Position numbers and translations under genes: made by a program
From: Glaciozyma antarctica PI12
Taxonomy: Eukaryota > Basidiomycota > Microbotryomycetes > Kriegeriales > Camptobasidiaceae
DNA length: 56,597 nucleotides
Reading direction: 5' to 3'
Assembly: GCA_002917775.1 (NCBI GenBank)
Contig: KZ627161.1
Location: 1,048,256 to 1,104,852 of the forward strand
The notes under the pieces: generated by a model
Told to the model about the DNA's origin: nothing
Databases searched by the model: none
Seen by the model: the letters and a program-made list of their open reading frames with translations, nothing else
In this document: in pieces, positions 20,887-45,012 of the stretch
How positions within the stretch are numbered: position 1 is the stretch's first letter
How the letters are laid out: each line of letters opens with the position of its first letter

Positions 20887-23800
20887 ATGTCGCGCTGGGA
20901 CGACTACGTGGACGCGCCCAGTGGCACGAGCGCACTTGCCCTCCCCGTCGCCGGATTCGAGGGCGGTGAGGGAGGCGTGTACGGCGGAGGGGCAGGAGAC
21001 GAGGTGAGTTCCGTTTTGGCAGAACGTAGAGCGATCTTGAGGGTGCGGAGGAGTCAGCAGTCGCCGCTGCCGTGCTCGAAGCTGGGGGTGCCTGGGTGGA
21101 GCTGACGCTCTCTGTCCCCTGCAGGTCGACGATACGCCCATATTCTCCCTAGGACGAGTCCAGTTCGCCCTACCGTCTCCACTCCATTCCCTCTCCTGCA
21201 CGTCCAACATCCTCCTCCTCACCCTCTCCGGCCTCCCTCGCCCCTCCAACACCTCCTCAGCCGGCGGGCAGTCTCCCCAGCTCATCCGCATCGATCTCGA
21301 CAAGCCCACCGAAGTCGAGAACATCGATCTCCCCATCCCTCCGCCAGTCACCACTCGCGACGGCGTCGTCAGCGCTCTCCATCGCGTCCATGTGGATCCG
21401 ACCGGCCGGCACGTCCTCATCTCGACCACGAACGGCGACAACTTCTACGTCTTTATCGGTACCTTGCCAATAGGAGGAGCGCCGACATCAGGCCGGAGAG
21501 CGAAGCCGCTGGCGCGGTTGAAGGGCGCCATCATCGAGTCCGTCTCCTGGACTCCCTCCTCCACTTCCGCCTCGTCCGCCTCCTTCTCAACGCGCGAGAT
21601 CCTCCTCGGTACGGCGAACGGACAGATCCTAGAGACGACTCTCCTCGACCCCTCCCTCGCCGAATCCTCGTCCTTCTCCATCCCCGTCCCAGGTCGCTCA
21701 GGCGCGCCGGAGCGGTATGTTAAACTCTTGTACACGCTGCCGGAGCGACAAGGAATCACTGGACTCAAGTGCGAGACGTGGGGAAAGCGGGCGACGATTA
21801 TCGCGACGACCAAGACGCGGATTTACCAGTTTGTGGCGAGCTTGAGCGGGAAGAAGGACGAGGAGGGAGGGATGCTCGAGGCGGCTTTCCAGCCTTACGT
21901 GTCGGGAGAGGCGCAGCCTAGTAAGTGGCTCGCTGGCCTGCGACGGAGAGTGGGCGCTGACTGCTTGCAGAATCGTTGGAGCTTCCTGGCGAACCGCTCA
22001 ACTCGGAGCTGCACTTTTTCGCACCCTTGCGCACCGATTCGAAGGGATCCATCATCGGGATCAACCTACCCAAAACCGTCGCTTGGCTCACTGGTTAGTC
22101 CGATCCGTTCTGGTTTCGAGATCCTCACTGACGAACCTTCGCAGGACCTGGCATCTACCACGGCGCTCTCACCTTCGCTCCCCCTTCCTCCGACCACCTC
22201 CACCCCGGCGACGGCGTCATCGAATCCGCCTCCCTTGTTCCTTACCCCGCCGAGCCTTCCTCACCTACGCACCTTTCTTCGGGCTTCCCTGAACGCGACA
22301 AGTTCGCCGAAGAAGATGGGAAGCTCGAGATGCCCATCAGCATGGCGTTGACCGAGTGGCACTTTATCCTGCTGTACGAGGACAAGATCCGCGTGATCGG
22401 ACTGCTGAGTGACAAGGTCGTGTACGAGGAGGCTCTTGACCTTGTGCGTTGAGCTGTTCTCTGCGAAAGTGCTGCCGCTGACTCCCCGACGCAGCCTCCT
22501 GGCGTTCGGCCCATCCGCCTTTCGACTGATCCTCTTCGCAAGACGTACTGGATGCATACCGACCAGTCCATCTTCGAGCTCGTCGTCAAGGACGAGGACC
22601 GCGACGTCTGGAAGATCTACCTCGCTCGCTCGAACTGGGAGCTTGCACGTCGCTATGCCAAGGTCCGTTTTGATACCAACTACAGCGCGCTCTGAATCTA
22701 AATACGGTCGCTCGCAGACTTCTCGTCAGCGCGATAACGTCCTCGCAGCCGAAGCGGACGCCTACTTTGCCTCGGGTCGCTATATCCAGTCCGCGCAGTG
22801 CTACGCTCAGTCCTCAAAAAGCTTTGAGGAGGTCGTTCTTCGCTTCGTCGACAAGAACGAGCGAGATGCCCTGCGGTACTATCTCGGAGCCAAGCTGGAG
22901 CGTCTACGACGAACAGTGAGCTCGCTTCCCCCGACTTGTGGCGACATCGCTGATACCTCTCCTAAAGGACTTGACGCAACGAATGATGCTCGCGACATGG
23001 CTCGTTGAGATCTACCTTTCGAAGATTAGCCAGCTCGAGGATATCGCCGCTGCCGAGCGCGCTTCGGAGGACGTCGAGAATTACAAGATGGAGAAGGGCC
23101 TGATCGAAGATGACATGCGACAGTTCCTTACGACCTATAAGGTGAGCTGCTGCGCTGCTCTTTTGCTCTCTGCTTCCGCTGATACCTCGCGACCCGCAGG
23201 ACAACCTCGACCCCAAGACGGTCTTCGACCTCCTCGTGAGCCACGGTCGAGATGAGATGACGCTCTACTACGCTGGCATCGTTGGCGACCACGAACGGAT
23301 CATTACTCACTGGATTCTCGAGGAGGACTGGCTCAAGGCGCTCGAGGCTCTCAACAAGCAGGTTCGTCGTTCGACTCTGCCTCTCTCCACCGCAGGCACT
23401 GATTCGGCTTCGCAGGAGAACCTCGACCTCTACTACCGCTTTTCCCCCGTCCTTATCCGTCGATCACCTCAGCAAGCCATCGAAACCTTCATGCGCCAAC
23501 CCAACCTCGACGTCCGCCGACTCATCCCCGCCATGTCTCCCCCGAAACGCTCTCCCTCCGATACCCGCTTCTCCATCAAATACCTCCAGTACTCGATCCT
23601 CCAACTCCAGAACACCGACGCCTCGGTGCACAATACCCTCCTCACACTCTACGCCACCGACCCCTCGCCCGACGAAGACGAAGCCGAAACTTCCTCGCCG
23701 CCAGCCCCGACAACCCCCTCACCACCGCACCTTACTACGACCTCGATTACGCTCTCCGCCTCTGTCGGTCGAACAAGCGCGTTCAGGCGTGCGTGCTCAT

Positions 23801-42107: not shown

Positions 42108-43645
42108 TCAGGAAGCGTTGAGAGGCGAGACTTTGTCGGCCGTCGCTACTGCTTCGAGGAAGAGGTTCCAGAACGCCGGTACCTGAGGTCTAATCAGCGT
42201 CAAGGAGGAGAGAGGAGGGAGGGAGAACGAACATCGACTTCTTCCGCGACCCAAACGTTCTTCCCGAACGCACCCCAGCTCTCCCTCGATTCTGGATCCA
42301 CCATCGCCGTGAGATCGTCCTTGCGGTACTCCCAGAGATCTATGACTGTCGTTCCTGCCGTATAGCTGCGAAGGACGAATCAGGCGCGTTCGACGGCTTG
42401 CGAAGATAGCTTACGCTCCGGCGAGCTCGCAATCGACGCGGTATCGCTTCCCCTTGAAGAGATGCGGATGAGCTAGAAACGCCAGGCAAAGCGGGTCGTG
42501 CACTGGAGGTCCATCGTGGAAGTCAAAGACTTTGGCGTCTGCGGTGGTTTCGGTCAGCGAGCGCGAGGGTGAGAGAGAGCACAGACTCACAGGTCGAGGC
42601 GAAGAACATGAGCAGCGTCGAGAGCGTGTGCCGAAGAGGAGTACTGGCTTCTGTCGAGTGGATGGAGGGTGGTGTACGTTGGAGGAGTTGCTCGTTGATC
42701 GAGGGAGTGAAGAGGGCGGTGTGGCTGACGTTGAGCGGCTTGAGAGGGGAGGTGCGTCAGCAGTAGCTCGAGCAGGCTGTCAAGGACATACGATCATGAC
42801 GACTTTGACCTCGGCATTGAAGACGATCGCAGCGGCCTGAGAGGGAGTCAGTGAGGTCCAGGAATGAGAGCTGGCGCGAGTACTTCGGGGTCACACATCT
42901 GCGAGCGCGATTCAGTAGATTTCCGCCTTTCGCTGCCGAGGAACTCACAATATTGAACTCTGCTGTGGGACCACGATTCCCCCTCCCTTCCGCTCCACCC
43001 ATAAGAACGATCTGGGACACCTTGTCCCGCACCAGCTCGGGGAACATGGCGCAGAACAGAGCCGCGTTCGTGAGGGTTCCAGTCGCGACGATGGTGAGTC
43101 GTCCTTCGTCGCCTTCTCCCCCAGGCATCGCACGCGCTGCGTCGGCCATAGCGAGTATGGCGTTGCGACCCTCGGATTCAGCGAGCTTGAGCTTGACCAA
43201 CTCGTTCTTTCCGTCGTAAAGGCCTTCGACTCCTCCGAGACCGTCGTCTCCATGGATCTCTATCAAGAACAGGTACTTCAGTACTTGTCGGAATCGAGAG
43301 GAAGACGAAAGCTCACCAGGATCGTGTCTGGCTGCCCGCAGAAGCGGCTTGTGCGAACCCGAGTAGACGGGGATACCGCGCGCTTGCTCCGGAGATCCAA
43401 AAGAGACGAGCAGCCGAGCAGCGTTGAGCGTCGTGTGCAGCAATGATCCGTTCCCGTGGACGGTTGAGATGCCCACCAGGCGGATCTGAGGGAGGTGGAC
43501 TTTGAGGGAACTTGCAGGGTGAGTGCGCAGGCCGTTTGATGCCGTTGAAGGACTCACGGCCGAGCAGTATCGCTATCGCATCGTCGTGTCCTGGGTCGGC
43601 GTCTAACCAGACTGAAATCGGGGCCATTCGGGAGAGGGACTCCAA
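42108..43645 (-). CDS. Inosine/uridine-type nucleoside N-ribohydrolase
   Basis: This family cleaves the N-glycosidic bond of ribonucleosides in purine and pyrimidine salvage, using a calcium ion held by an Asp cluster. On the minus strand the protein begins MAPISVWLDADPGHDDAIAI (43627 onward), the family's DxDPGxDDAxA signature with His in the variable position. It continues RLVGISTVHGNGSL (about 43485) and GIPVYSGSHKPLLR, then LTIVATGTLTNAALF (about 43107-43063), SQIVLMGGAEGRGNRGPTAE, and the block VSHTALFTPSINEQLLQ (about 42730-42680). The C-terminal part includes PVHDPLCLAFLAHP, with the conserved HD pair, and VWVAEEVDVPAFWNLFLEA, ending at TGA 42110-42108. Short introns are visible. The Met at 43645 or the one at 43627 is the start; the second begins directly at the catalytic strand. 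Confidence 0.88.
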
Positions 43646-43876
43646 GCTGATCTCGGCCGATACAATGCCACCAATTTATTTGTTTTCTCTAGGTCTTTCC
43701 AAGTCCCGCTTCCGATTAAATTTTCAGACGCGTGGGCTGACGAGGAGACACGTCAACCTTTTCCCCAATTTTCCCCTCACCCTCTCGGTCGGAAAGGAGT
43801 GGCCCTTCTCTCCTTCCGCGTCGATACACTCCCGCCTTACCCTCCGCCACACACTCGACCCCAACTCAACCCAGCC
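43646..43876. promoter_or_regulatory. Shared divergent promoter (nucleoside hydrolase / HAC1-like)
   Basis: A 231-base gap separates two divergent start codons, so it must hold both promoters. It is more AT-rich than its surroundings near 43665-43725 (TTTATTTGTTTTC) and CT-rich toward the bZIP start. No specific factor site is claimed. Confidence 0.5.
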
Positions 43877-44913
43877 ATGTCGTCCGGGTCTCGCGCAGGA
43901 GCTTCAAAACGCAGCGCGTCTGCCGCGTCCTTCGAGGAGGAAGACGCCTCGGACGTCGAGGGCTCCACGTCGAAGCGAGCGAGAGGAGGCAAGGCCAAGG
44001 CCGATGTCTCCTCCTCCGACAAGATCGCACGGAAGGAGGCTCGTATGCACCGCAACAAAAGTGCGTTCTTTTGCTGCTGACGTGGCCACTTCGAAAGCTA
44101 CTCAAGCTGACTCTTCCCTGGAGTCGCCGCCCAGGCTTCACGCGATAGGAAGAAGAACTACACCGAGACGCTCGAGCGCCGCGTAGCCGAGTTGGAGGCT
44201 CAGGTCGGAGAAGGGGCTACGCCACCATCGACCTCCTCCCGCCAGCCTTCGCGCCGTTCGCCTTCCATCGCCGCCGCTCCTCCCACTCCCCCTTCCTCTA
44301 CCAGCACCAACCTTGAAGAGGAGAACGCAACTTTGAGGAGTCAACTCGCCGTAGAGCAGCTTCAAAGCGCCAACCTCAAGGCTCGCCTGGGGACGCTCGA
44401 GCATCGCTTCGCCAAGTTGGAATCCCTCCTTTCGACTCCCACCACCGCCGCACCCTCTCCATCCCTCCCCCACCCCTCCTTCACCTCCTTCCCTCACACC
44501 TTCGCCGACCTTCCCACGCCCAGGACGGACGACGGCCCTTCGACCCAACCTGAGACCATGGACAGCTCTCGCCTCCCAGCACAGGAGGTTTCCCTGCAGC
44601 GGAAGCTGTCCGACCCTCTCTCGTCCAAGTCGTCGGCCCCGACTCCTTCTTCGCGGCCCCTCTCCCCTCCTCCACGCCCTACGCTCTCGGAAGTCCTAGC
44701 GTCGATCCAAGTCCCGCTCTTGGTTTCGACTTCGCGGACGTCTGGAACGACTGGGAGGCAGGACTCGGGGTACCGTCGGCGGTCGATGAGTGTTGGGGTG
44801 GAAGCGGGGCGGACCAAGGAGCGCTCTTTGGGTGCGAGAGGGAGACGGGCGTCCTCGATGCCGACTTCTTCGCGTTCTTCGAAGCAGATGCGGTGGTACT
44901 TTCTGTATGTTAG
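43877..44913 (+). CDS. HAC1: HAC1/XBP1-like bZIP factor of the unfolded protein response
   Basis: Exon 1 (43877-44060) and exon 2 (from 44124) join across a 63-nt intron (GTGCGT donor, GCTGAC branch) in phase. The joined basic region is RNKIAAQASRDRKK, followed by a heptad-like ETLERRVAELEAQV and a second coiled segment (about 44310-44430). The AAQxxRDRKK core is characteristic of XBP1 and of fungal HAC1, CIB1 and HXL1 proteins, which drive ER-stress genes. Without further splicing, exon 2 runs to TAG 44918-44920 (326 residues) with a Ser/Arg-rich tail. If 17 bases at 44580-44596 are removed, the frame shifts to one that ends at TAG 44911-44913 (318 residues). Its tail is acidic and aromatic (FDFADVWNDWEAG; DADFFAFFEADAVV), as expected of an activation domain. 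The upstream limit of that tail frame is a TGA at 44551-44553, so the switch must occur after it. Regulation by Ire1-dependent splicing is inferred. Confidence 0.82.
44572..44606 (+). promoter_or_regulatory. Candidate Ire1 twin-hairpin splice element
   Basis: Two adjacent stem-loops with 7-base loops are visible. The first is CCTCC-CAGCACA-GGAGG at 44572-44588, a perfect 5-bp stem. The second is GTTTCC-CTGCAGC-GGAAGC at 44588-44606, with six pairs including one G-U; the two share G44588. The second loop matches the Ire1 consensus CNG|CNGN fully, and the first matches at all fixed positions except the sixth. The intron between the cuts would be 44580-44596 (17 nt). Confidence 0.68.
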
Positions 44914-45012
44914 GCGTTAGCGCCGTGGGACGAAGATTCCCCGAACGTGCGTCCCTTCTCCTCAGCGTCGACGTGTTGAGAATGTCGAGCTGACGTGTCC
45001 ACGTGCGCGCAG
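44905..45012 (+). other. Possible conventional 3' intron of the HAC1-like transcript
   Basis: A branch-point-like GAGCTGACG and an acceptor GCGCAG before 45013 are preceded by two possible donors, GTATGT at 44905 and GTGCGT at 44947. Using the first would remove the TAG at 44911 and replace the last residues of the acidic tail with about 25 others. Using the second would be a 3'-UTR intron. The sequence alone does not decide. Confidence 0.4.

Follow-up and report, generated by a model that had tools for sequence, protein, structure and literature searches.

A Predicted 17-nt Ire1 Intron in a Probable HAC1/XBP1/HXL1-Type bZIP Gene of Glaciozyma antarctica PI12: An Unusually Compact Version of a Known Switch

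Genetic Organization of the Locus

The DNA considered here, referred to as the window, is a stretch of 56,597 nucleotides of Glaciozyma antarctica PI12 (assembly GCA_002917775.1, contig KZ627161.1, positions 1,048,256 to 1,104,852 of the forward strand), which is GC-rich (60%) and characterized by short introns. On its plus strand lies a HAC1-like gene with at least two exons, whose ATG is found at position 43877 and whose first part is organized as follows:

43877..44060, plus strand: exon 1, from the ATG to the basic region (...RMHRNK), read and translated from the sequence
44061..44123, plus strand: ordinary spliceosomal intron of 63 nt (GTGCGT...AG), located inside the basic region
44124..44579, plus strand: bZIP part of exon 2, comprising the rest of the basic region, the LERRVAELE segment, a Pro/Ser linker and a second coiled-coil-like stretch

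The donor of the 63-nt intron, GTGCGT, is the most frequent donor hexamer among the pattern matches on the plus strand of the window (n = 19), and joining the two exons without this intron restores RNKIAAQASRDRKK, so that the product reads ...MHRNKIAAQASRDRKKNYTETLERRVAELEAQV. Residues 50-88 match the Pfam family bZIP_1 (PF00170) with an E-value of 5.6e-10 and 39.6 bits against a cut-off of 27.6; PF07716 is matched as well (28.2 against a cut-off of 22.3), and the nearest solved structures by sequence are bZIP chains of CREB (E 0.003). In addition, the stretch AAQASRDRKK (AAQ..RDRKK) presumably resembles the basic region of XBP1. The zipper is split after its first heptads by a Pro/Ser-rich insert of 35 residues (44207-44311).

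Relatives were looked for in collections of bacteria, archaea and viruses, where the absence of a fungal-type gene says little. Specifically, the bZIP part found no confirmed relative among viral contigs (4 pattern matches) or among genome contigs (92), the acidic tail described below found none among viral contigs (5 pattern matches), and none of the 49 pattern matches of the unspliced tail was confirmed. A degenerate basic-region pattern was absent from the viral contigs; its two bacterial matches run into a stop within about 35 residues, with no zipper, and were discarded as due to chance.

Upstream of the gene, on the minus strand, a divergent neighbour (42760-43572) matches inosine-uridine nucleoside hydrolases (PF01156, E 3.9e-34). 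The only ATG in 43577-43876 opens a frame of 173 amino acids (43665-44186, unspliced reading). It spans the main start, with which it is out of frame, and, if transcribed, could act as an upstream ORF.

Two Adjacent Hairpins and a Candidate Ire1 Intron

The initial annotation had reported in this gene two adjacent stem-loops with loops CAGCACA and CTGCAGC, and both lie in exon 2 as described, together with a closing helix that had gone unmentioned:

44571..44589, plus strand: 5' splice-site hairpin, loop CAGCACA (44577-44583), predicted cut after 44579
44587..44607, plus strand: 3' splice-site hairpin at its maximal extent, loop CTGCAGC (44594-44600), predicted cut after 44596
44580..44596, plus strand: predicted Ire1 intron of 17 nt, CACAGGAGGTTTCCCTG, placed by the loops, the frame change and the register of Rfam family RF04247
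44560..44567, plus strand: left strand of the closing helix, pairing with 44604-44611
44604..44611, plus strand: right strand of the closing helix, in the fold of 44556-44616

The two loops stand out in their surroundings. A scan of exon 2 for 7-base loops of the relaxed CNG type on stems of at least 5 bp returned only the neighbours CAGCACA at 44577 and CTGCAGC at 44594, and the strict form CNG|(C/A)NGN on a stem of at least 4 bp occurs in exon 2 just once, as CTGCAGC at 44594. When a twin was defined as two CNG loops on stems of at least 5 bp, 14-80 bases apart and with at least one loop of the strict CNG(C/A)NGN type, the 44577/44594 pair was the sole one in the window, whose two strands together comprise 113,194 nt. 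Among 3000 dinucleotide shuffles of exon 2, a twin arose in 20, and in 8 of the 3000 the enclosed length was 2 mod 3.

The specificity described for Ire1 of S. cerevisiae is CNG|(C/A)NGN (PMC8104961, as excerpted). The 3' loop, CTG|CAGC, agrees with it in full. The 5' loop, CAG|CACA, fits at three positions (-3 C, -1 G, +1 C), but has a C rather than a G at +3, a deviation that the initial annotation overlooked when it quoted CNG|CNGN for Ire1. This points to a more tolerant Ire1 in this organism, to a weak 5' site or to an error of detail in the proposed reading.

The Ire1 switch might also have different boundaries, such as those of a 20-nt intron produced by the cut TCC|CAGC after 44576. 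This cut also keeps the frame and gives an intron that begins with CAG, thereby restoring the G at +3; CAG stands at both borders of the intron of Cryptococcus HXL1, and an intron of 20 nt is described for Aspergillus fumigatus (both in the consulted portion of PMC3154848). Against it, the cut would follow a C at the base of the loop and would have neither the C at -3 nor the G at -1. Moreover, 44130-44584 contains a single frame-compatible cut of the CNG type (C at -3, G at -1) whose 7-base loop is carried by a stem of 3 bp or more, the one after 44579. We regard shifted boundaries as unlikely, if slightly less so than the explanations discussed further on, and retain the 17-nt intron.

In the fold of 44556-44616, both hairpins are carried by the closing helix of 8 bp, seven of whose pairs have a probability of 1.0 and the remaining one of 0.83, and the lowest energy belongs to a three-way form that shows both 7-base loops. 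Its margin is just 0.1 kcal/mol, several alternative folds lie within 0.5 kcal/mol, and the probability of the loop-closing pair is 0.58 for the 5' hairpin and 0.26 for the 3' hairpin, with the same values in five longer contexts; the two-hairpin conformation is not dominant in the predicted ensemble. Counting G-U pairs, the stems extend maximally to 6 bp (5' hairpin) and 7 bp (3' hairpin). At full length they have 44587-44589 in common, so the two hairpins are never complete simultaneously, and the full 3' stem also overlaps the closing helix; in the lowest-energy fold the 3' hairpin retains just 3 bp (44591-44593 with 44601-44603). In a 42-nt piece deprived of the closing helix, the 3' half folds differently. 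Compared with shuffled sequences, stability is not exceptional (z = -1.18 over 42 nt and -0.59 over 221 nt). A looser definition, with 3-bp stems on a closing helix of 7 bp or more, admits 67 of 2000 shuffles and nine places in the window, the 44577/44594 site included. Because the energies are unexceptional and loose three-way shapes are not rare, the structural argument relies on the loops and on their uniqueness more than on stability.

An additional indication comes from Rfam. The family ranked first among the 4227 searched with 44540-44640 is RF04247 ("bZIP non canonical Hac1/Xbp1 intron"), described as an intron found in Metazoa (PMC11701678, as excerpted). The alignment covers 44561-44610 on the plus strand and the entire model (positions 1-72 of 72), and in it the closing helix and the two loops line up with those of the model. 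Its score of 18.4 bits (E 0.24) remains under the curated gathering threshold of 41 bits; divided by the 4227 families, the E-value corresponds to roughly 6e-5 for RF04247 alone on this segment. RF04247 appeared when 101 bases were submitted and was absent from the results for 1601 bases. The likeness extends to the closing helix, the two hairpins with 7-base loops, the loop register and the 3' loop CUGCAGC, whereas helices and junctions are shorter here and the 5' loop is CAGCACA in place of the CuGCAGC of the model.

In S. cerevisiae-type HAC1, translation is blocked through pairing between intron and leader. Extensive pairing of this kind was not found when gapless duplexes between 44555-44616 and 43577-43876 were searched, the longest one measuring 8 bp.

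A Predicted Exchange of the C-Terminal Tail

Removal of the 17 nt changes the protein after residue 214, replacing a tail of 112 residues with one of 104:

44597..44913, plus strand: tail of the predicted spliced form, acidic and aromatic, 104 residues, ending at the TAG of 44911-44913
44597..44920, plus strand: basic, Ser/Arg-rich tail of the unspliced form, 112 residues, in the bZIP frame, stop at 44918-44920

As the initial annotation had it, the excision converts a Ser/Arg-rich tail into an acidic and aromatic one: 21 K/R, 6 D/E and 5 F/W/Y in the unspliced tail become 2 K/R, 16 D/E and 13 F/W/Y in the spliced one, which corresponds to a net charge of -14 (D/E minus K/R) and 13 aromatics per 104 residues. 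The claim that the new frame stays open for about 105 codons is correct as to length (104 residues), but openness by itself was rejected as evidence, since 125 of 504 overlapping off-frame 104-codon windows drawn from six ORFs of the window are open as well. The acidic frame is in fact already open from 44552, and 44597-44913 is open in both the basic and the acidic frame, whose stops start seven bases apart.

Beyond the tail, a further spliceosomal intron may be present, either 44905-45012 (donor GTATGT) or 44947-45012 (donor GTGCGT), with a branch-like CTGAC at 44990 and an acceptor CAG at 45010-45012. With the donor at 44905 in use, the acidic frame would continue for 25 mostly non-polar residues in place of the VVLSVC end.

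Codon usage offers a way to follow the frame along the gene. The models were trained on ORFs of the window, starting with a set of 33 that was likely contaminated by non-genes and continuing with sets of ten and of six; the six-ORF set drops ORFs 26889, 13769, 40993 and 33927 after leave-one-out scores of at most 0.025. The area under the curve is 0.898 for the ten-ORF model and 0.989 for the six-ORF model, the latter on leave-one-out windows and flattered by the selection, and the control windows are overlapping, not independent. In the six-ORF model, exon 1 scores 0.249, more than all 506 off-frame 104-codon windows, and the bZIP part of exon 2 scores 0.118. The acidic tail, at 0.134, is equalled or exceeded by 0.4% of the 506 off-frame windows, the third frame falls to -0.253, and the unspliced tail, at -0.034, is intermediate between coding and non-coding sequence.

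A single switch from the bZIP frame to the acidic frame gains 20.6 nats in the six-ORF model, with an optimum at 44615, that is, 18 bases 3' of the predicted junction, and a 2-nat range of 44606-44639 that starts nine bases past it. In the ten-ORF model the gain is 17 nats and the range 44597-44631. Taken over both models, codon usage places the switch 0 to 42 bases 3' of the junction at 44597. As a control, 158 segments were treated in the same way with the six-ORF model; in 108 of them an alternative frame was open at the end, and 3 of these 108 gained anything, one of them more than the candidate (22.0 nats). That segment is situated within ORF 21041-22348, which matches Vps18 (PF05131, E 4e-45) and may contain an exon end or intron that was left unmarked. 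Under the ten-ORF model, 3 of 73 control segments gained at least 17 nats, up to 57.5; they derive from ORFs 13769 and 33927, which may hold introns or be no genes.

The codon model registers a change of frame and is blind to its cause. A one-base sequencing or assembly error could join the two frames, leaving a gene with no regulated intron in which the acidic tail is always present, an eventuality that the initial annotation had itself named. Such an error would account for none of the RNA features, that is, the twin hairpins, the closing helix and the Rfam match, nor would it explain the identity of the gene as a bZIP gene, and we consider it very improbable. An equally low probability is assigned to the opposite case, in which the acidic frame is untranslated, the gene ends in the Ser/Arg-rich tail and the hairpins are there by chance. 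The unspliced frame is indeed open to its stop at 44918-44920 with an intermediate codon score, and the local folding energy is unexceptional; downstream of the switch, though, the acidic frame outscores the unspliced one, none of the 504 off-frame windows equals it in both acidity and aromatic content, and the twin hairpin is unique within the window. Least probable of all is that an ordinary spliceosomal intron, or alternative splicing, connects the bZIP and acidic frames: 114 frame-joining stretches of 30-199 nt of the GT/GC...AG type start in 44440-44799, GC-AG included, yet the GT-AG candidates, inspected individually, all lack a CTNAY branch site, and their donors with G at +5 are GTCCGA, GTCGGC, GTCTGG and GTTGGG rather than the GTGCGT, GTGAGT and GTACGT common here.

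With the bZIP domain, the unique twin hairpin, the top but sub-threshold Rfam match and the codon-usage switch close to the junction on one side, and neither a competing CNG cut nor a convincing spliceosomal intron on the other, the HAC1/XBP1-like Ire1 switch put forward in the initial annotation is well supported. Judged from its sequence, this is very probably a gene of the HAC1/XBP1/HXL1 type with a 17-nt Ire1 intron at 44580-44596. As a member of the Ire1-spliced bZIP genes of this group it is graded probable, not proven, because the 5' loop misses the consensus at +3.

Comparison with Known HAC1/XBP1 Systems

The anatomy of the gene is closest to that of HXL1 of Cryptococcus neoformans (PMC3154848, in the sections available). 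Both are basidiomycete bZIP genes with a short conventional intron (55 nt in HXL1) and, downstream, an unconventional intron bordered by stem-loops, whose length is 2 mod 3 and whose removal exchanges the tail. The differences concern the conventional intron, located upstream of the bZIP domain in HXL1 and inside the basic region here, and the unconventional one, which in HXL1 measures 56 nt, has CAG at both borders and was shown by RT-PCR, whereas here it is predicted, measures 17 nt and begins with CAC.

Other fungi provide closer parallels in size. The hac-1 gene of Neurospora crassa, in the portion of the account consulted (PMC4488935), likewise has a short intron (23 nt), twin hairpins, a 3' border CTGCAG and a change of frame; its intron is six bases longer, was shown experimentally and has a 5' border CTGCTG with G at +3. 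The bases after the 5' cut are thus CTG in N. crassa (PMC4488935) and CAG in HXL1 (PMC3154848). HAC1 of Candida albicans also has a very short Ire1 intron between two hairpins, of 19 nt as compared with 17 nt here, and the same source, as excerpted, quotes from Hooks and Griffiths-Jones 2011 a range of Ire1 introns from 19 to 379 nt (PMC6222058). Within this range fall the introns of A. fumigatus (20 nt) and Cryptococcus (56 nt; both PMC3154848), of N. crassa (23 nt; PMC4488935) and of Yarrowia, given as 29 nt. Similarly, cib1 of Ustilago maydis is described as a fungal Hac1-like bZIP transcript whose unconventional intron is excised by Ire1, and the likeness is one of description (PMC6918084, PMC10688622, as excerpted). 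According to one study, in the part consulted, HAC1 was not found in the genome of the red yeast Rhodosporidium toruloides (PMC9853887). The literature searched returned nothing on Ire1 and the unfolded protein response in Pucciniomycotina, and no precedent for a HAC1 intron of 17 nt, a novelty of length that is judged against partial literature.

A Proposed Mechanism and Its Implications

On the basis of these features, the following sequence of events can be proposed. In unstressed cells, the mRNA would be read through the 17 nt, and the resulting bZIP protein would end in the basic, Ser/Arg-rich tail. Following ER stress, Ire1 would cleave both loops after G, at 44579|44580 and 44596|44597, with the closing helix and the compact twin hairpins keeping the exon ends together until an RNA ligase would join them. 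The loss of 17 nt would then shift the frame and provide the protein with the acidic, aromatic tail, presumably an activation domain.

An intron of this size would be near the geometric limit: where two 5-bp stems, each with a 7-base loop, adjoin directly, the stretch between the cuts consists of 4 loop bases, two 5-base half-stems and 3 loop bases, 17 nt in all. We favour, with moderate confidence, the view that this is the smallest Ire1 intron yet described, and that Ire1 tolerates a 5' loop devoid of G at +3 because the 8-bp closing helix presents both loops.

If confirmed, these findings would provide a candidate master regulator of the UPR for this fungus and would lower the size limit of fungal Ire1 introns from 19 nt, the quoted minimum, to 17 nt. 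A gene model that reads through the intron would have the wrong tail for the stress form of the protein. Moreover, nature would have provided, in this locus, a test of the extent to which Ire1 depends on the loop consensus.
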